DNA of 44,553 bases, taken from positions 1-44,553 of IMG/VR virus record IMGVR_UViG_3300042343_001238. The stretch is one strand, 5' to 3'. The notes under the pieces are model-generated. The model was not told the DNA's origin, did not search any database, and saw only the letters and a list, made by a program, of their open reading frames with translations. The position numbers were made by a program, and so were the translations under genes. Positions 3,777 to 36,828 of this stretch are shown in pieces. How positions within the stretch are numbered: the stretch's first letter is position 1; the number at the start of each line of letters is the position of its first letter. The stretch comes from a virus.

Positions 3777-4484
3777 TTATGCTTTCTTTTCTTTTAGAGC
3801 AGGAGTGTCTTTTAGTTTTACAGATAGCTTGTCTGGGCTTTCTGTGCTTTTATCGTGTTTTAGATATGCGGATTTGGCGTCTGCTTTATCTTTCAATACC
3901 TTATCTACAATCTTTTCAATCTTGTCAACGATGCTTCCACCAAGGGCTGGAGCAACATCTTTGTTGATAGGAGCATTTTCTTTATCTACTTTTTCTTCTG
4001 CCTTTACTGTAGTATCATCTGCGATTTCAACTTGAGTTTCTTCATCGGCATCATCCATCTTATCGGCTTCATTGGCTTCTTCTTTTTCGGATGGCTTCTT
4101 ACCAAATCCTTTTAGACTCTTATCATATGCTTTTTGGACATATGTCTTATCTGAACTTTCAGCGTGTTGTTTTACAAGTTCCATTGCTGCTTCAAGAGAA
4201 ATGCCGCGAGCAATCTTTCTTTCAGATTCATTTGTAATGGACACAACGTCGTAGCAATCATCGGAGTTTTTACCTAGCTGAACTTCTTGATTGCCTTTCA
4301 TTCCTGCGGTTTTTCCTGTGCCACGAATTTTCATTACGTTGGCATCCTTGCCCATTGCCTTGGTTAGTGCTTCTTCGCCAGTCAAATCCTTTTTATCCGA
4401 CTGAATAGGTGTACCAAACTGATTATTGGTGATTTCTTGCAATACTAACTTTTTGATGGCTTTTTTTAGAAGTTCACGATTCAT
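3777..4484 (-). CDS. Charged low-complexity protein with N-terminal helical tag, possible scaffold or internal virion protein
   Basis: 235 residues, rich in Lys, Asp, Glu and Ala. The N-terminus MNRELLKKAIKKLVLQEI resembles the opening helix of several proteins encoded at 28-32 kb. Residues about 75-110 (DDCYDVVSITNESERKIARG) form the only compact-looking part; the middle (about 135-185) is a disordered acidic stretch (EEANEADKMDDADEETQVEI), and the tail is again lysine-rich. No enzyme motif is visible. The composition is typical of scaffold, internal head or DNA-associated phage proteins, but nothing here proves this. The start is preceded by TATTTATA 21 bases upstream and by a terminator that separates it from nrdA. 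It overlaps nothing and is coupled to the next gene by a one-base gap. Confidence 0.7.
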   Translation of the reverse strand: MNRELLKKAIKKLVLQEITNNQFGTPIQSDKKDLTGEEALTKAMGKDANVMKIRGTGKTAGMKGNQEVQLGKNSDDCYDVVSITNESERKIARGISLEAAMELVKQHAESSDKTYVQKAYDKSLKGFGKKPSEKEEANEADKMDDADEETQVEIADDTTVKAEEKVDKENAPINKDVAPALGGSIVDKIEKIVDKVLKDKADAKSAYLKHDKSTESPDKLSVKLKDTPALKEKKA

Positions 4485-13955: not shown

Positions 13956-14834
13956 TTACGTCATGTTCTTTTCTGCAAAGATTTTGTATTCATCTCTGTC
14001 AACACTCTTAACCGGCACAACTTCACCGCTCAATCCAACAACGGCTACAGTATTTCCTTCAACATCTCTATATTCACCATATGGTTCCGCTCTCCAACCT
14101 TTTTTAGCGGCAAATTTCTTTGATACAGAAGAATATTGTTCGGGAGGAGTTGTTACCACAGGAACGTCTATAGCGGGAGCGGCGGCTGAGGCTGGTGCGG
14201 CTGGTGCTTCCGAACTTGGTTCTTGTGAATACTTTCCTTTATAAGTAGGTCCAAGTTTTTTTGCGGCATATTTCAATAGCGCGTCACTTCTTGAATCTAC
14301 ATCCAAATCTTCTTCGGGAGCTTGCGACTTTGGCTTAGAATCTTTTGGAGCATCCGAGGGAGTTCCTGTTTGTACAGTTTTTTTATTTGTTGGTTGCGCA
14401 ACTGGCGCGGATTGTTTTGCTGTCTGACCGGTATTAACTTGTTGATCTACAGAGGTTGTTGCCTGTGCCGTCTGTCGTCTTTGTTTTCCCTTGCGTTTAT
14501 AGTAAAGATTCATACCACCCTTACCGTGGGTTGGGTCCGATACAGCGTGTGTTCCTTTTTTTATTGCAGCGTCACGATATTCTTTAGATGGAAATGTAAC
14601 CAACCATCCTTCCTTGTTATAAGCTTGGCGGTCTGGATATTTTCCTTCTGCAAACATTGCCGTGTCGAGTAGATTTTCTGCTATTTCCTCGGTCAACCCA
14701 AATCGCACAGAGCGTTCTACAAAAACAGCCAAGTGATCGGCGTTGTGTATATCAAATACTCCGGACGATATTCTATCGTCAGATTCGCAGTCAAGTATTA
14801 CGTTTTCTATTAATTTTTCAATTTCATTTTTCAT
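13956..14834 (-). CDS. Hypothetical modular protein with helical N-terminus and basic GTH-containing module
   Basis: 292 residues in three parts. (1) The N-terminus MKNEIEKLIENVILDCESDD and DRISSGVFDIHNADHLAVF form a helical module that I recognise as recurring in marine-phage proteins. (2) Residues about 78-125 (GKYPDRQAYNKEGWLVTFPS, AIKKGTHAVSDPTHGKGG, YKRKGKQRR) form a compact basic module, also recurrent in such phages. (3) A low-complexity linker of Gln/Thr/Ser/Pro/Ala runs from about 125 to 240, ending in a small C-terminal beta-like domain (GWRAEPYGEYRDVEGNTVAV). The ATG overlaps the stop of the previous gene as ATGA, so the two are translationally coupled. It may be a virion-associated or DNA-associated protein; no catalytic motif is visible. 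Confidence 0.75.
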   Translation of the reverse strand: MKNEIEKLIENVILDCESDDRISSGVFDIHNADHLAVFVERSVRFGLTEEIAENLLDTAMFAEGKYPDRQAYNKEGWLVTFPSKEYRDAAIKKGTHAVSDPTHGKGGMNLYYKRKGKQRRQTAQATTSVDQQVNTGQTAKQSAPVAQPTNKKTVQTGTPSDAPKDSKPKSQAPEEDLDVDSRSDALLKYAAKKLGPTYKGKYSQEPSSEAPAAPASAAAPAIDVPVVTTPPEQYSSVSKKFAAKKGWRAEPYGEYRDVEGNTVAVVGLSGEVVPVKSVDRDEYKIFAEKNMT

Positions 14835-16231
14835 TGTACATCTCCGCTACTTTTTCGTTTGATAAGAACTGGTCCACTCTGCGCATAACCATAAAACATC
14901 CAGTCTCCAAACCAGTTTTCTAGATTTGATTCATATTCAAATGTGCCATTTTCTTTGAATAAAATAATTCCGCCAGTATAACTTCCCCCCGATGAGGATA
15001 CAGCCTTGAGCATTTCACTTGCAACTTTAACTGGGTCGTAAATGTCTTTATCAACTTGGGGATGATATTTGAAAAACTCAAGTCTTTTTATTTGTGGAAT
15101 TATTATTTCCATTTTTCTTGCTTGTTTTTCAATTGGAGATACTTTTATTTGAACAGTTGATCCTTCTGGTGCTGGTTCTTTTATCTTTTTTTCATTCTCT
15201 GCATCAAGGTCTTTCAATTTAAGAACTTTTGTGCTATCGTCTAAATCAAATTCTACCTTCTCGGTACCAGTAACCGTTCCATATTCTTTTTCTGAAAGTC
15301 CTCTTACATATAATCGCAAAGTTTCTAAACCATATATTACAGAAACTCCCAAACTAAATAATGAAGGATTTTTTATAAAATCTTCGGTTGCAGTATAATC
15401 GCTTCTTTTCTTTCCTAGCGAGCCTAAACCGTCTTCTGCACCGGATTCTTTTAAAAGATCAATCAATGCTTCCTTATATTCATCTTTTCTACAATATTCC
15501 ATGAGTTCTGTGAGTGCTCGTATGTAGGGAACTTTATCAAATCCTCCTCTACCGAATGCCGCAACGGTTATTCTAAAAATGTCAGAACCTTCTTTTACAT
15601 CTATTTTTCTACCATCGGCCAGCAAAATATCCCCAGACTTCGTTCCTGCACTTTTCGCGTCTTTGATCAACAATACAATTATATATTCTCCACGACCCGC
15701 AGAACCAGTAGAATCTACTTTTTTCGCCGACGATCTTGCACCGTCCAATGCTTTCATAAAGTTCAAGAAGTCCGATTGTTTTATTTTCTCGTTTATATAA
15801 CTTACTGCACTTTCCGGCGTTTCATTATCCAAGTGTTCAAGAAAATCCATTTTATTCTGTGCAGAAAGCTCATCCAATGCATCAATAATTTTTTCTGCGG
15901 AGTTTTGATTAAAACCTTTTTCTTGCGTGAGAAAATTTACATCCCATTTTGCCTTTACGCCAAAAGTTTTATGCCATTTTTTAGCCGCTTGCCCCGACTT
16001 TATCATTTCTATGCTCGTTCCGTCTTGATACATCGGATGATTTTTTGCGATTAACGATCCTCCTTTATTTACAAAATATTTAGAAGCAAGTGGATTGATC
16101 TCATCTCGTTCTGCCAGTATTTCATTTAATATAGAAATATTTTCTGGGGTGTCATGTCCACTCGCCAAACCATCTGGCGAACGCATCGCCCATTCATTGA
16201 GAACATACTCTATAATCTTACTTTTTTCCAT
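14831..16231 (-). CDS. Candidate PD-(D/E)XK nuclease-like protein
   Basis: 466 residues. The N-terminus (MEKSKIIEYVLNEWAMRSPD, then DTPENISILNEILAERDEI) is a helical module of a kind repeated in phage proteins. Residues 179-213 contain GRGE (E182), GDILLADGRK (D201) and IDVK (D211-V-K213): an upstream glutamate, an aspartate and a D-x-K about ten residues later is the core layout of PD-(D/E)XK nucleases, so this is a candidate restriction- or Holliday-junction-like nuclease. The assignment rests on motif spacing only. The C-terminal third (KVEFDLDDSTKVLKLKDLDA, MEIIIPQIKRLEFFKYHPQ) looks like a separate beta domain. The start has TATTTATA four bases upstream. It is coupled to the next gene by an ATGA overlap. 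Confidence 0.65.
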   Translation of the reverse strand: MEKSKIIEYVLNEWAMRSPDGLASGHDTPENISILNEILAERDEINPLASKYFVNKGGSLIAKNHPMYQDGTSIEMIKSGQAAKKWHKTFGVKAKWDVNFLTQEKGFNQNSAEKIIDALDELSAQNKMDFLEHLDNETPESAVSYINEKIKQSDFLNFMKALDGARSSAKKVDSTGSAGRGEYIIVLLIKDAKSAGTKSGDILLADGRKIDVKEGSDIFRITVAAFGRGGFDKVPYIRALTELMEYCRKDEYKEALIDLLKESGAEDGLGSLGKKRSDYTATEDFIKNPSLFSLGVSVIYGLETLRLYVRGLSEKEYGTVTGTEKVEFDLDDSTKVLKLKDLDAENEKKIKEPAPEGSTVQIKVSPIEKQARKMEIIIPQIKRLEFFKYHPQVDKDIYDPVKVASEMLKAVSSSGGSYTGGIILFKENGTFEYESNLENWFGDWMFYGYAQSGPVLIKRKSSGDVQ

Positions 16232-28135: not shown

Positions 28136-29119
28136 TTATTTTAATCCTTTTTTCTTCAACAGATATTGACGTAGCCGGTTCATCTTTGCTTGTTTGTCAG
28201 CTTTTTCAGATGCAGCAAGATTTGCGATATCTGGTTCGGATGTATCTGTTTCTGTTCCTGCGTCCACTTTTGCTTTTTCTATTGCGGTCTGAATTACCTT
28301 AGCATCCATACTTAGCGGAGTTTCTTCGCTATTTTTTTCAGCAATAGCGTCAATAACTTCCTGCTCTGTTGCATTTGGATTATACTTTACAAATTCCGCG
28401 ACGGCTTCTTCTGTTCTGGCAATTTCAGCCTGTGATCCTGTTCCAGTTGATACAACCGGAGATGTTTTTGGACGACCCAGATTTGGATTGGTTCCTGTTT
28501 TTTGATATGAACCTTTTGGAGCCTCTGTTGGTGTGCCATCTGGTATTGTCTTGTGTCCTTTAACGGCCCACCCTGTTGGCGAGTTTGGATCTTCTACTTT
28601 AAACTTGTTACCAACCGCACCTTTTACGCGAGCCATTTCGTCAATTTCTTCACGTATCATTGACAGTATTTCTTCCTTGATACTTCCAACTTTTTGTGGG
28701 TTGGATGGCTTCTTAACTACAGGAAGTTTCTTGCCTTCTTCTTTTTCTTTTGGCTCTGATGTCGGGGTCAATGACTTTGAGTCGGCTACGTTTTCGGTAT
28801 GATCTGTTGACTCCTTTGCTTTCTTGAAACCAGACAATCCTTTTGTTTCATCCAGTTTTGAGTTTTTAACGGTAATCACTTCTTCTGCGATTACTTTTAG
28901 TAGTTCTTTTAGTTCTGATTTTTTCATAGTGTTTTCTTTGAGGTTAATTCTTCTGGCATAATCTTCTGCCGCTTTTGTTGATGCATCTATTATGTTCTTG
29001 ATATATTGTTCTCTCTTTTTTGGATCACGTTCTTTCAAGAATATATCATCATACGCAAGATCGGTCAAACTAGCTTCTAGTTGACCTATCTTAAAAAGAT
29101 ATTTTGGTGAATTGTCCAT
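28136..29119 (-). CDS. Charged modular protein with internal tag helix (possible head/scaffold or virion-associated protein)
   Basis: 327 residues. Residues 1-64 (MDNSPKYLFKIGQLEASLTD, KKREQYIKNIIDASTKAAED) form a short domain. Residue 65 starts MKKSELKELLKVIAEEV, which matches the N-termini of neighbouring proteins, so an internal start at about 28927 is possible, though upstream there is only a weak AAAGAAAA. The middle is disordered (Lys/Pro/Glu/Ser) and contains a second helix of the same flavour, SIKEEILSMIREEIDEMAR, then a compact segment AVGNKFKVEDPNSPTGWAVK. The C-terminus is helical and ends in a basic RLRQYLLKKKGLK. No catalytic motif. It is coupled to the previous gene (TAATATG). 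The makeup resembles phage scaffold or internal head proteins; this is inference. Confidence 0.7.
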   Translation of the reverse strand: MDNSPKYLFKIGQLEASLTDLAYDDIFLKERDPKKREQYIKNIIDASTKAAEDYARRINLKENTMKKSELKELLKVIAEEVITVKNSKLDETKGLSGFKKAKESTDHTENVADSKSLTPTSEPKEKEEGKKLPVVKKPSNPQKVGSIKEEILSMIREEIDEMARVKGAVGNKFKVEDPNSPTGWAVKGHKTIPDGTPTEAPKGSYQKTGTNPNLGRPKTSPVVSTGTGSQAEIARTEEAVAEFVKYNPNATEQEVIDAIAEKNSEETPLSMDAKVIQTAIEKAKVDAGTETDTSEPDIANLAASEKADKQAKMNRLRQYLLKKKGLK

Positions 29120-29120
29120 A

Positions 29121-30911
29121 TTACCACTTTCTGCAACTCCAGTAACGTGCTTTTGTACGTGGTCCTGGATTAGCGCAATTATGACGTGCTCTAAAACTTT
29201 TCCTTCTCTTTGGATTACTCTTCTTGATACGCATCTTTTTATCGCCGAAGTTTACCTTCTTTACTTTACCGGTTGTTGGATTACGAACAAAAACTTTGAA
29301 CTTTTTTACATCGCCCCTCATTGGTTTTCCAAGTTTTACCTTGCGACCACGATATTCTGCTTCTGTCAAGTTTTCTTTAGCATCGGCATTAATATCTCCA
29401 TAAATCTCATAAAACTCATCGCCTTCGCAAGTATGCTCTTCACCTTCTGGAACCATTTCCCAGTTGGTCTTGCGATAGCATTCTTCATAAGCCTCGTTGG
29501 TACCTTCTTCCATGGCAGCTTCATAACATTCCCAACATTCATCTTGCATCTGGTTCTGTTCGTTATACATCTCTTCTACCATTTCTCTGATTATATTCTT
29601 CAGTTGTTCTTCTTTCATAAGGGTTTCCTCGTTCTTTTTTCTGCCTTGGCAATGTGCTTTTTGACTGAATCCTTTTGGATGACTACAATCAATGCTACGC
29701 TTGTATTTTTTGCTCCATTTTTCATCAAGTTCTTCAACGCCTTCTGATTTGTTGCCCCAGTTCTTTGCTCCTTTTTTACGGCATTTTACTAATGCACCAG
29801 AAGCATATGCACTTGGCCACACTTTATAGCGCGATTTAACTTTATAATAACAAGCATCTTTCTTTTCGTTCATCAATAGTTCTGACACAAGTTCTCCACC
29901 ACAAATAGGGCACATATGATTTTCATTTACATTATCCATAGTAAATTCCTCTGTTTCTGCTATATTTTGTTTTTCTAAATGGTTTTTAACTTTCATCAAC
30001 TCTGCTTGATTTAAATCGTCCAAATGTTCTTTACCCGTCAACTCTTTTGTAAGTTCAAGAAAGCTTGGCTCGTTGTCCCACTCAATACCTAAGTCGTCTG
30101 CAAGTTTATGTATGGTTTCTGGTGTTATAGATTCGCTCAATTCTTTTTTCAACGATTGCAACAAAGCACGAGCTACAACACGATCCTTTTCTTTTTCGGC
30201 ATCGCTTAGTTGGTTGTAGTCAATATTCATCAATTTTTTTCTTTGTTGTATCTTATTATCCAGTTTACCAGACTGGCGTAGTTTTTCAGTATCATCAAAT
30301 TGATCCGGATTTTCAACAAACTTTTTTGCCGTGACATTCCATCCTTTGTGAATAGCATTCGCAATTTTTTCGATGTCAGTGACGCCCATATCAATTACTT
30401 CTTTAGCATATGTTGCAGACATTACATTAGCCTGCCAACCAAAAGTATTACCCGTCGTGCTGCGACCATATCCATATGCTTGATCCAGTGCTTCATCGCT
30501 AATGGTTGCCAGTTGTTCAATAGAGAAATTGGAAGATTCTGTTATAGATTCCTCTGTTTTCTTTTTACAACTACCTGGTGCACCAGCAGGCACACCACGT
30601 ACTCGTGAGTATCCCTTCCAGCACTTTAGTTCATCCATCTTATCAGCCTCGGTTTTTACATTTTTTGCTTTGCCGCTACGATCTGGATTTGGGTCTTCAC
30701 GTCTCTTTCTGCGTGCAGCAGTTGCTCTACCTTTCTTTCCCATCGCTTGTGCAGACTTTAGTGGACGACACTTTGGTTTACCTTCGCTTGATTTTTCTCT
30801 GGCACATTGACCACGTATCTTACCGTCTGGACCAAATCTTACCCATTTCTCTTTAAACCATTTATGCAGGTTCTCTTCAATCTCTAGAAGTTGTTTCTCA
30901 ACATCGTCCAT
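29121..30911 (-). CDS. Multi-module Cys-containing protein with RyR-like domain and nested in-frame starts
   Basis: 596 residues built from small units. 21-73: basic EKWVRFGPDGKIRGQC with C36/C48 and a Lys/Arg-rich ARRKRRE. 96-118: CWKGYSRVRGVPAG...C115. 183-258: RyR-like domain (AIHKGWNVTAKKF, YNQLSDAEKEKDRVVARAL). 262-315: ITPETIHKLADDLGIEWDN. 333-387: CPICGGE, CYYKVKSRYKVWPSAYASGA, VKCRKKGAKNWGNK. 396-425: KRSIDCSHPKGFSQKAHCQ. 432-449: MKEEQLKNIIREMVEEM, a tag helix. 455-500: acidic Cys-rich. 519-596: VKKFKVFVRNPTTGKVKKVN, RRKSFRARHNC, KARYWSC. Several modules recur in marine phage proteins. ATGs at residues 325 and 432 each have a good Shine-Dalgarno (see regulatory entries). Function unknown; a virion- or DNA-associated role is inferred from charge and neighbours. 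Confidence 0.78.
   Translation of the reverse strand: MDDVEKQLLEIEENLHKWFKEKWVRFGPDGKIRGQCAREKSSEGKPKCRPLKSAQAMGKKGRATAARRKRREDPNPDRSGKAKNVKTEADKMDELKCWKGYSRVRGVPAGAPGSCKKKTEESITESSNFSIEQLATISDEALDQAYGYGRSTTGNTFGWQANVMSATYAKEVIDMGVTDIEKIANAIHKGWNVTAKKFVENPDQFDDTEKLRQSGKLDNKIQQRKKLMNIDYNQLSDAEKEKDRVVARALLQSLKKELSESITPETIHKLADDLGIEWDNEPSFLELTKELTGKEHLDDLNQAELMKVKNHLEKQNIAETEEFTMDNVNENHMCPICGGELVSELLMNEKKDACYYKVKSRYKVWPSAYASGALVKCRKKGAKNWGNKSEGVEELDEKWSKKYKRSIDCSHPKGFSQKAHCQGRKKNEETLMKEEQLKNIIREMVEEMYNEQNQMQDECWECYEAAMEEGTNEAYEECYRKTNWEMVPEGEEHTCEGDEFYEIYGDINADAKENLTEAEYRGRKVKLGKPMRGDVKKFKVFVRNPTTGKVKKVNFGDKKMRIKKSNPKRRKSFRARHNCANPGPRTKARYWSCRKW
29616..29633 (-). promoter_or_regulatory. Internal ribosome-binding site and ATG (residue 432) in the 596-residue gene
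   Basis: The minus-strand sequence GAGGAAACCCTTATG puts GAGG eight bases before an in-frame ATG at 29618. Starting here gives a 165-residue protein that begins with the tag helix MKEEQLKNIIREMVEEM. Confidence 0.5.
29937..29955 (-). promoter_or_regulatory. Internal ribosome-binding site and ATG (residue 325) in the 596-residue gene
   Basis: AGAGGAATTTACTATG on the minus strand gives GAGG eight bases before an in-frame ATG at 29939. The product would start just before the CPICGG zinc module and run to the shared stop (272 residues). Confidence 0.45.
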
Positions 30912-30917
30912 AATATA

Positions 30918-31481
30918 TCAAGCTCTATCTTGTATAGACTGTTGTTTACGAATGACATCCGACTGCTGTTTTTGCAACTTTGCTTTTGTGCGTTCTGCTC
31001 TTTGTATCTTTGGCTGAATAGTTTGTTGTAACTTAGCCATATCACCTTCTACTTTTTTAATATTAGCAGTTAGTTTGTCACTCTGAGCTTTTAGATTCGC
31101 TAGTTCTTTTTTATCCGCGTCAGTCAATCCAGTTTCAGCAGCAGATGAATCGAGTGTGGTATCAAGTTCATTAAGATCTTTTTCGTATATTTCGTTCATC
31201 ATATTGACTGCGAGATTGAATACACTACTTTGCTTCATAAAGTATACCGCCGCATTCCAGTCTTCGGCTTTAATTCTCTTCTTCAACTCGTCGGCGTATC
31301 CGTCAAGTTTTTTTTGCCAATAACTTTTTGGCATATTACCATAACCTATTAACTGAAGGTGTGGATCGTTGGTGTCTTTTCCGGAAATAATATATCCATA
31401 CTTTGACGCATCACCGTTGGTTTCCGCCAGTTTATGAGCAACCACATTTTGAATTACTTCTTTGAGTGTAGACTTATTCAT
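30918..31481 (-). CDS. Helical protein with N-terminal tag helix and coiled-coil C-terminus
   Basis: 187 residues. The N-terminus MNKSTLKEVIQNVVAHKLAE is the same tag helix as in the flanking genes. Residues about 25-60 (SKYGYIISGKDTNDPHLQLI, GYGNMPKSYWQKKLDGY) form a small ordered part, followed by helices (WNAAVYFMKQSSVFNLAVNM). The last 80 residues are a predicted coiled coil (LANLKAQSDKLTANIKKVE, KIQRAERTKAKLQKQQS). The ATG overlaps the previous stop (TAATG), so it is translationally coupled. I do not recognise a function; the coiled coil and context fit an internal or assembly protein. Confidence 0.75.
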   Translation of the reverse strand: MNKSTLKEVIQNVVAHKLAETNGDASKYGYIISGKDTNDPHLQLIGYGNMPKSYWQKKLDGYADELKKRIKAEDWNAAVYFMKQSSVFNLAVNMMNEIYEKDLNELDTTLDSSAAETGLTDADKKELANLKAQSDKLTANIKKVEGDMAKLQQTIQPKIQRAERTKAKLQKQQSDVIRKQQSIQDRA

Positions 31482-31852
31482 TATTTTCCGTGCATTTTTA
31501 AGATTGCTTCAGCGGCGTCTTTTGCCTTCTTGGCAAGTTCAACTTCACGCTTTTCTTCTGGATTATCCATATCAGTTTCATCGTGATCTTTGCCTTCAAA
31601 TGCCATCCACATTTCATTTATCTTTTTATTACCATCTTTCTTGGCATAAAAAATCTTCCACATAGTAGCATATGCTTTACCTTCATCGTCCTTATACTGT
31701 TTCAGCAGTTTGTCGTGAAGTTTCTTTGGAAAATCCGGTGGAGCTTTTTCATCTAGTCTCCATTCTTGTGCTACACCAAGTGGAGCAAAATCATCTTTCA
31801 TGACTTCTTCAACTACTTCACGTATAATTTTTTTAAGTTCTGATTTATTCAT
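31481..31852 (-). CDS. Small protein: tag helix plus LHDKLLKQY module
   Basis: 123 residues. The N-terminus MNKSELKKIIREVVEEVMKD is the clearest example of the tag helix in the window. The centre (PPDFPKKLHDKLLKQYKDDE, GKAYATMWKIFYAKKDGNKK) is a small helical module that I recognise as recurrent in marine phage proteins. The C-terminus is acidic (KDHDETDMDNPEEKREVELA) with a final helix. No enzymatic motif. Four bases separate it from the upstream gene's stop, and its own stop overlaps the next ATG, so the whole 32.1-28.1 kb block is read as one coupled series. Function unknown. Confidence 0.8.
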   Translation of the reverse strand: MNKSELKKIIREVVEEVMKDDFAPLGVAQEWRLDEKAPPDFPKKLHDKLLKQYKDDEGKAYATMWKIFYAKKDGNKKINEMWMAFEGKDHDETDMDNPEEKREVELAKKAKDAAEAILKMHGK

Positions 31853-31856
31853 AATA

Positions 31857-32087
31857 TTAATCCTGTTTAGTTGGTTTTATGTTAAACTCTTGTTGTAGCG
31901 TTTTTAGTATTTTTTCACGCATATCTTCCGTTTCATCCATATCAGAACCAGACACAGTTATATTAATATACAATGTTGGATTAGTTTCTGTTGGTGAAGT
32001 TATATATGACGCAGCAGTGCGAGTGTTCTTGGCTTTTGCCTTTTTAACAGCCTCAACTATTATTTTTCTTAGTTCTGCTTTAGTCAT
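31857..32087 (-). CDS. Small protein with N-terminal tag helix
   Basis: 76 residues. It starts with MTKAELRKIIVEAVKKAKAK, the shared tag helix, then NPTLYINITVSGSDMDETED and MREKILKTLQQEFNIKPTK, predicted to be a small beta strand-helix unit. The protein is basic at the start and acidic in the middle. It is the first gene of the coupled modular block and is preceded by TATTTATA 16 bases before the ATG and by the tail-tube terminator (32203-32235), so transcription of the block probably starts in this gap. The function is unknown. Confidence 0.72.
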   Translation of the reverse strand: MTKAELRKIIVEAVKKAKAKNTRTAASYITSPTETNPTLYINITVSGSDMDETEDMREKILKTLQQEFNIKPTKQD

Positions 32088-36023: not shown

Positions 36024-36268
36024 CTTCCACCTCGTCTGTTTGCTACATCCATCCATTTGATTACTTCATTGCGAACAACTTCTGCTATATCTTCTGAATA
36101 CTGAGATATAGGAGTATCTGCTGCTGTAAGGTCTTTATGTTGATGTGCTACAATATTGTTTTTTATTAATACGTCTGCAAAAGCCTTGCACGCCTTTTCA
36201 AGCATAACCATGTCGGATACATGAAATTGTTCTTTTAGCAGCAAAGATTTTAGCGAAACGTGATTCAT
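36020..36268 (-). CDS. Small protein of the phosphatase-nucleotidyltransferase operon
   Basis: 82 residues, coupled on both sides by ATGA overlaps (upstream gene 36265-36828, downstream gene 35115-36023), so it is part of one operon. It reads MNHVSLKSLLLKEQFHVSDM, then helices VMLEKACKAFADVLIKNN and SEDIAEVVRNEVIKWMDVAN. The predicted fold is all-helical. No motif I recognise. Its position between an HAD phosphatase and a nucleotidyltransferase suggests an adaptor or antitoxin-like subunit, but that is speculation. Confidence 0.72.
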   Translation of the reverse strand: MNHVSLKSLLLKEQFHVSDMVMLEKACKAFADVLIKNNIVAHQHKDLTAADTPISQYSEDIAEVVRNEVIKWMDVANRRGGR

Positions 36269-36828
36269 ACAGACACAATCTGTTTAATCTTATTTATGCT
36301 GCTCGCCGCATCTTTATGTAAAATAGCAATTCTATTTTCACCGGAATTTTCCCAAGCAGTTATATTCTTGTCTGTATCATCAAGTAGTATATGAGTAAGT
36401 CTGACATCCGCTCTATCAATGATATATTGTGGCTTTGATACGCCGGACGAAGCAATAATAACTTGAACACTTGGGTCTATATGCTTGCGTATCCATGCAG
36501 TTTTCTGCTCTTTTATTTTTGTGCCGATGCCTGCACTCAGTACAACAGCGGGTGGATCTTTGAATCTATCTTTTATATAATCCCAAAGAACTTTAGCGTC
36601 TGGCAATGGTTCTAGGTCAAGCCAGAAATTAGGATTTTTATTTACTACTTTCCAAAAAGTGTTTTTGCCATTTTTTGCTTCATAGTCTTGAGGAGATAAT
36701 CCGCCAGAAACTGCCTTGAATCCTTTATCAAGGTTTACAAGAACTCCGTCCATATCCACATACATTTGATATTTAAGTGGAGACTTTTCTTCTACTTCTT
36801 TCAATAGATTTTTTAGGAGTATATGCAT
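36265..36828 (-). CDS. HAD-superfamily phosphatase, 5'(3')-deoxyribonucleotidase-like
   Basis: 187 residues. After a short helical start (MHILLKNLLKEVEEKSPL) comes motif I YVDMDGVLVNLDKGF with the nucleophile D25 and D27, a serine in VVLSAGIG (motif II), and HILLDDTDKNITAWE (motif IV acidic pair). The fold and size fit the NT5C-type deoxyribonucleotidases used by phages to adjust nucleotide pools, or a small-molecule phosphatase. It is the first gene of the coupled operon with the small protein and the nucleotidyltransferase. The start is preceded by TATTTATA four bases upstream, with no Shine-Dalgarno. Confidence 0.8.
   Translation of the reverse strand: MHILLKNLLKEVEEKSPLKYQMYVDMDGVLVNLDKGFKAVSGGLSPQDYEAKNGKNTFWKVVNKNPNFWLDLEPLPDAKVLWDYIKDRFKDPPAVVLSAGIGTKIKEQKTAWIRKHIDPSVQVIIASSGVSKPQYIIDRADVRLTHILLDDTDKNITAWENSGENRIAILHKDAASSINKIKQIVSV

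Follow-up and report, generated by a model that had tools for sequence, protein, structure and literature searches.

An N-terminal helical tag common to many unrelated proteins of a T4-like phage and its relatives, and its probable role as a head-targeting propeptide

Tagged genes at the locus

The window, by which we mean the whole stretch of DNA analyzed here (44,553 nt), belongs to a T4-like phage, and many unrelated proteins of this phage and its relatives have an N-terminal helical tag in common. The usual core of the tag is Φ-x-x-Φ-Φ-x-E, ending in [I/L]-x-E. At the gene starts of the window, the tags are:

32052..32087, minus strand: tag of gene 31857, MTKAELRKIIVE followed by A; residues 1-12, L6-x-x-I9-I10-x-E12, predicted cut after E12
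31817..31852, minus strand: tag of gene 31481, MNKSELKKIIRE followed by V; residues 1-12
31422..31481, minus strand: tag of gene 30918, MNKSTLKEVIQNVVAHKLAE followed by T; residues 1-20
36796..36828, minus strand: tag of gene 36265 (5'-nucleotidase-like), MHILLKNLLKE followed by V
36230..36268, minus strand: tag of gene 36020, MNHVSLKSLLLKE followed by Q
4434..4484, minus strand: weak tag of gene 3777, MNRELLKKAIKKLVLQE followed by I
16193..16231, minus strand: tag of gene 14831, MEKSKIIEYVLNE followed by W
14790..14834, minus strand: diverged tag of gene 13956, MKNEIEKLIENVILD

The initial annotation had described the pattern L-K-x-[IL]-[IL] plus an acidic EE at the N-termini of genes 31857, 31481 and 30918 and inside genes 29121 and 28136. 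The residues that it named are present in all five proteins, the internal copies lying at residue 432 (gene 29121) and residue 65 (gene 28136); the EE, however, is inconstant, and the recurring acidic element is [I/L]xE. The other genes named there, which we class as weaker cases, each have an early [IL]xE too (gene 3777 and those starting at 14834, 16231 and 36828). Gene 36020, not named there, likewise has an early [IL]xE.

The full register is kept in 14/15 distinct N-termini of the 31481 family if V is allowed (V replaces I/L at P3 of E16 in 6/15), and in 15/16 distinct homolog N-termini of the 36265 family, in which the L072 homolog has neither tag nor cut site. The 14831 family has [IL]xE in 4/4 distinct N-termini and the register in 3/4. 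In the 36020 family, [IL]xE is present in 10 of the 11 distinct N-termini despite sliding spacing (LLSE, LLLKE, LILAE), and the full register in three. Gene 30918 carries [IL]xE at residues 8 and 20 and none at 12; an L-x-E ends at residue 20 or 21 in 16/16 of the distinct homologs listed, and the full register is seen in 0/3 distinct N-termini. The four distinct N-termini of the 3777 family all have LQE, and none has the full register. Gene 13956 reads ILD at the position where three homologs have I[TS]E followed by A. Three window families retain [IL]xE without the full register. The helix of the 31481 protein is predicted by AlphaFold, with low confidence, at residues 3-18; the model (mean pLDDT 62.6) is uninformative on the function of the cargo.

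Excess over chance

Genes were called with a simple purpose-made caller that takes the leftmost ATG as start, and the expected number of matches was derived from internal positions. The strict tag pattern, ^M.{2,7}L[KRS].[ILV][ILV].E, matches 3/38 window genes of at least 50 aa (0.02 expected) and 12/335 genes of the relative G001 (297 kb; 0.26 expected), such that the enrichment at N-termini proposed as a check in the initial annotation is indeed observed. With a looser pattern, 19/335 genes of G001 match, compared with approximately two expected. None of 2000 shuffles of the window N-termini reaches three strict matches, and none of 2000 shuffles of those of G001 reaches the observed 12. The sharing of this N-terminal helix is genuine and lies far beyond chance.

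Blind EM motif discovery gives a log-likelihood ratio of 424 for N-termini vs 353 for C-termini and 250-254 for internal stretches; shuffled N-termini, run with fewer starting seeds, give 285-308. The margin over C-termini is modest, and motif discovery alone is not decisive as proof.

Cut motif and register

The T4 head protease gp21 (family S77) cuts at [I/L]-x-E. We selected 43 tag-like N-termini without requiring E, leaving out proteins below 50 or 60 aa. The contigs G003 and G016, with only 15 and 43 genes of at least 50 aa and apparently broken reading frames, were left out here and in the counts of hydrophobic positions below. Within residues 6-22, [IL]xE is present in 38/43 of these N-termini vs 166/809 other genes, counts that are not independent since homologs from several contigs are included. 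As the latter number illustrates, [IL]xE is common at N-termini by chance. Glutamate occupies the predicted P1 position in 26/43 of the N-termini selected without E compared with 16/130 internal matches; in G001 alone, the N-terminal figure is 12/16. Moreover, a hydrophobic residue is found at -3 in 100/170 N-terminal [IL]xE sites vs 652/2178 internal sites (p = 9e-14), while the excess at -6 is weak (p = 0.06). A second [ILV]xE at residues 13-28 is carried by 65/87 full tag proteins vs 25/84 when an equally long stretch is examined.

In T4 IPIII, residues 4 and 7 act in targeting and residues 8 and 10 in processing (PMC9026906). The spacing of these residues is that of L6, I9, I10 and E12 in the tag. 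Hydrophobic targeting positions at this spacing are present in the tag type overall, the 3777 and 30918 families being the exceptions.

Distribution and association with the head protease

Expressed as a DNA pattern, the tag matches viral contigs in at least 120 stretches, and its codon-permuted control matches none. Among 80 listed loci, 22 contigs are at least 40 kb long, and 20 of these were examined for S77 and Gp23; the random set comprises the 13 contigs of at least 40 kb among 38 stretches. The S77 (gp21-type) protease is found in 14/20 tag contigs vs 1/13 random contigs, a comparison in which the tag contigs are mostly longer, so that S77 is likelier to be found in them, and in which near-identical homologs make the counts not independent. 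Gp23, searched for in the tag contigs, is found in the same 14/20, and six of the 20 have neither. The remaining two are G001, with both S77 and Gp23, and G013, with neither, which gives 15/22 in total. In tail-tube relatives, S77 is present in 6/16 and Gp23 in 7/16. No S77 or Gp23 gene is seen in the 44,553-nt fragment itself.

In G001, G002 and G012, the S77 protease and MCP genes have tagged genes around them. The G001 MCP starts with MSIKSLLTE and has IDE followed by AT at residue 60; three tagged genes of this contig lie in tandem (139632-140448). Searches of 50,697 phage records by tblastn gave no match, neither with the 24 residues of the tag (E values up to 10 allowed) nor with single tagged proteins of two families; hence, no cultured phage with exactly this tag was reached. 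In a full-text literature search, which mostly excluded subscription papers, no listed paper dealt with this tag in its title or in the opening of its abstract, and none contained the letters MKKSELK.

Cargo and multi-module genes

Tag patterns gave 107 candidate tagged proteins, and 92 of them, a set freed of near-duplicates, were analyzed; the 15 left out are two large-terminase-like proteins, one MCP and twelve further members of one family. After removal of the first 24 residues, the 92 proteins fall into 73 BLAST clusters. The cargo includes a nucleotidase (NT5C), a NUDIX protein and an exonuclease (RNase_T), and Pfam recognizes seven families in all, with most proteins matching no known family.

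Two window genes carry the tag internally:

29121..30911, minus strand: gene 29121, predicted head polyprotein with basic, Cys-containing modules
30132..30536, minus strand: folded module of gene 29121, residues 126-260, between ITE125 and LSE260
29583..29618, minus strand: internal tag of gene 29121, MKEEQLKNIIRE, residues 432-443
29361..29369, minus strand: predicted cut in gene 29121, after LTE517 and before A, preceding the C-terminal basic module
29124..29360, minus strand: C-terminal basic module of gene 29121, beginning AEYRGRKVKLGKPMRGD, residues 518-596
28136..29119, minus strand: gene 28136, two-part protein
28883..28927, minus strand: internal tag of gene 28136, MKKSELKELLKVIAE followed by E, residues 65-79

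With [I/L]xE at the edges of its modules, gene 29121 resembles a polyprotein; the motif occurs at E10, E13, E125, E260, E319, E397, E443 and E517. In the AlphaFold model of the whole protein (mean pLDDT 48.9), residues 126-260 are the only confidently folded module (block pLDDT 73-91 for residues 131-250), and the homolog L008 lacks residues 122-259. The last module is preceded by [LI]-x-E-A, with T, A, E or Q as x, in 14/14 aligned sequences (the window counted). Stand-alone homologs of this module in two other phages begin exactly at the predicted cut (Pelagibacter phage Kolga, MAKYQGRTVKL; Roseobacter phage CRP-901, MATYKGKSVSL). Foldseek with the 29121 model gave nothing below E 0.18; at E 2.2, the Red-beta C-terminal domain (6m9k, matched residues unspecified) is at most a lead. 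Gene 28136 has 16 distinct homologs; in six relatives (L006, L004, L011, L007, L030 and G004), a separate ORF that starts at residue 65 corresponds to its second part.

Interpretation

The tag is probably a head-targeting propeptide that is removed by the head protease and functions like the T4 capsid-targeting sequences (CTS). The hydrophobic face of the helix (L6, I9 and I10, often with a second set at 14, 17 and 18) would bind the scaffold core of the prohead. Upon completion of the prohead, cleavage after [I/L]-x-E (E10-13 and/or E17-20) by the phage S77 protease would free the cargo within the head, to be ejected along with the DNA. A T4-like leader cut by the head protease had already been proposed in the initial annotation as one plausible explanation. 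Such a leader is predicted to contain the gp21 cut motif, to follow the T4 register, to co-occur with S77 and to precede unrelated cargo, and the results above support all four predictions, that on the register for the most part.

The fate of the tagged proteins may not be uniform. In T4, head maturation involves the digestion of scaffold or core components such as gp22 and gp67. After the same targeting step, some tagged proteins might be components of this kind and be digested likewise instead of being delivered. We regard this alternative as rather unlikely. Several tagged genes adjoin S77 in the head module of G001, G002 and G012, two of those in G001 have 5 and 7 [IL]xE sites, and the prevalence of proteins outside known families would also fit. 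However, NT5C, NUDIX and RNase_T enzymes are implausible as scaffold, two other tagged head-module genes of G001 have a single [IL]xE, located in the leader, whereas the presumed scaffold (named by position only) has 16.

It is improbable that the tag is instead an interaction or dimerization helix that stays in place and recruits proteins to a shared partner, e.g., a tail or replication complex. The predicted helicity agrees with such a role, and the internal copies in genes 29121 and 28136, which count against a removable propeptide, would be natural for it; yet an interaction helix does not account for E at the cut position next to a free P2 residue, for the retention of [IL]xE while its spacing slides in the 36020 family, for the association with S77 or for the T4 register. 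Common descent from one duplicated ancestral gene, or a bias for MKK-type starts, for which the tandem genes of G001 could speak, is very improbable given the 73 cargo clusters, the lack of BLAST homology across most cargo, the empty permuted-codon and shuffled controls and the hydrophobic enrichment at -3.

On the reading of the tag as a head-targeting propeptide, we tentatively put forward a broader possibility. In this uncultured T4-like lineage, the tag, often a doubled targeting and cutting unit, might serve as a general loading dock. Single proteins and strings of modules would enter the head as pre-proteins or polyproteins, be split at [IL]xE into separate effectors, DNA-bound and enzymatic, and then be ejected. 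Modules would move between carriers along the cut sites, with the head protease setting the grammar of cargo gain.

To our knowledge, the head-carried proteins delivered at the onset of infection have been worked out for few phages. If the propeptide reading is true, the sequence by itself could suffice to list head cargo in many uncultured T4-like phages, and about 17 genes of G001 would become candidates for counter-defence and host take-over. The tag would also offer an easy test of the generality of the T4 targeting rule, and it could be used as a portable leader to load proteins into phage heads.

Comparison with known systems

Polyvalent proteins (PMC5512222) are like gene 29121 multi-module and predicted to be packaged and delivered. 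Gene 29121 differs in consisting of small basic Cys modules, and its predicted processing relies on [IL]xE cuts made by the head protease, not on a peptidase domain of its own. Pfam searches up to E 0.1 found no polyvalent signature domain (ART, peptidase, methylase and others) in gene 29121 or 28136, and the two are therefore not placed among polyvalent proteins.

In SPN3US and phiKZ, head proteins have N-terminal propeptides cut after Glu, and the diverged paralogs gp53 and gp54 share an identical 15-residue leader (PMC5694885). The motif there is A-x-E or S-x-E, whereas P3 appears to be mostly I/L in this tag; before the last 29121 module it is L or I in 14/14. Several SPN3US leaders exceed 100 residues (PMC5694885), compared with approximately 12-20 here.

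The closest parallels are with the T4 CTS, which are also short N-terminal leaders on otherwise different proteins, with the usual Φ-x-x-Φ-Φ-x-E and L/I-x-E; S77 and Gp23 are found in relatives. The T4 leaders MKTYQEFIAE (IPII/IPIII) and MAKINELLRE (gp24) are in the register of the tag. Applied to T4 as a control, the register retrieves 3/9 head proteins for which cutting by gp21 is reported or annotated (IPII, IPIII and gp24) and matches 2/60 other CDS of the T4 stretch examined; at 3/9, it is insensitive in T4. The letters differ, being of the MKKSELKxIIKE type here, and the leaders are too short to judge common descent. In contrast to the T4 CTS, the tag often has a second [ILV]xE approximately eight residues further on and is found on many, partly enzymatic cargoes predicted to be packaged, and also within multi-module proteins.

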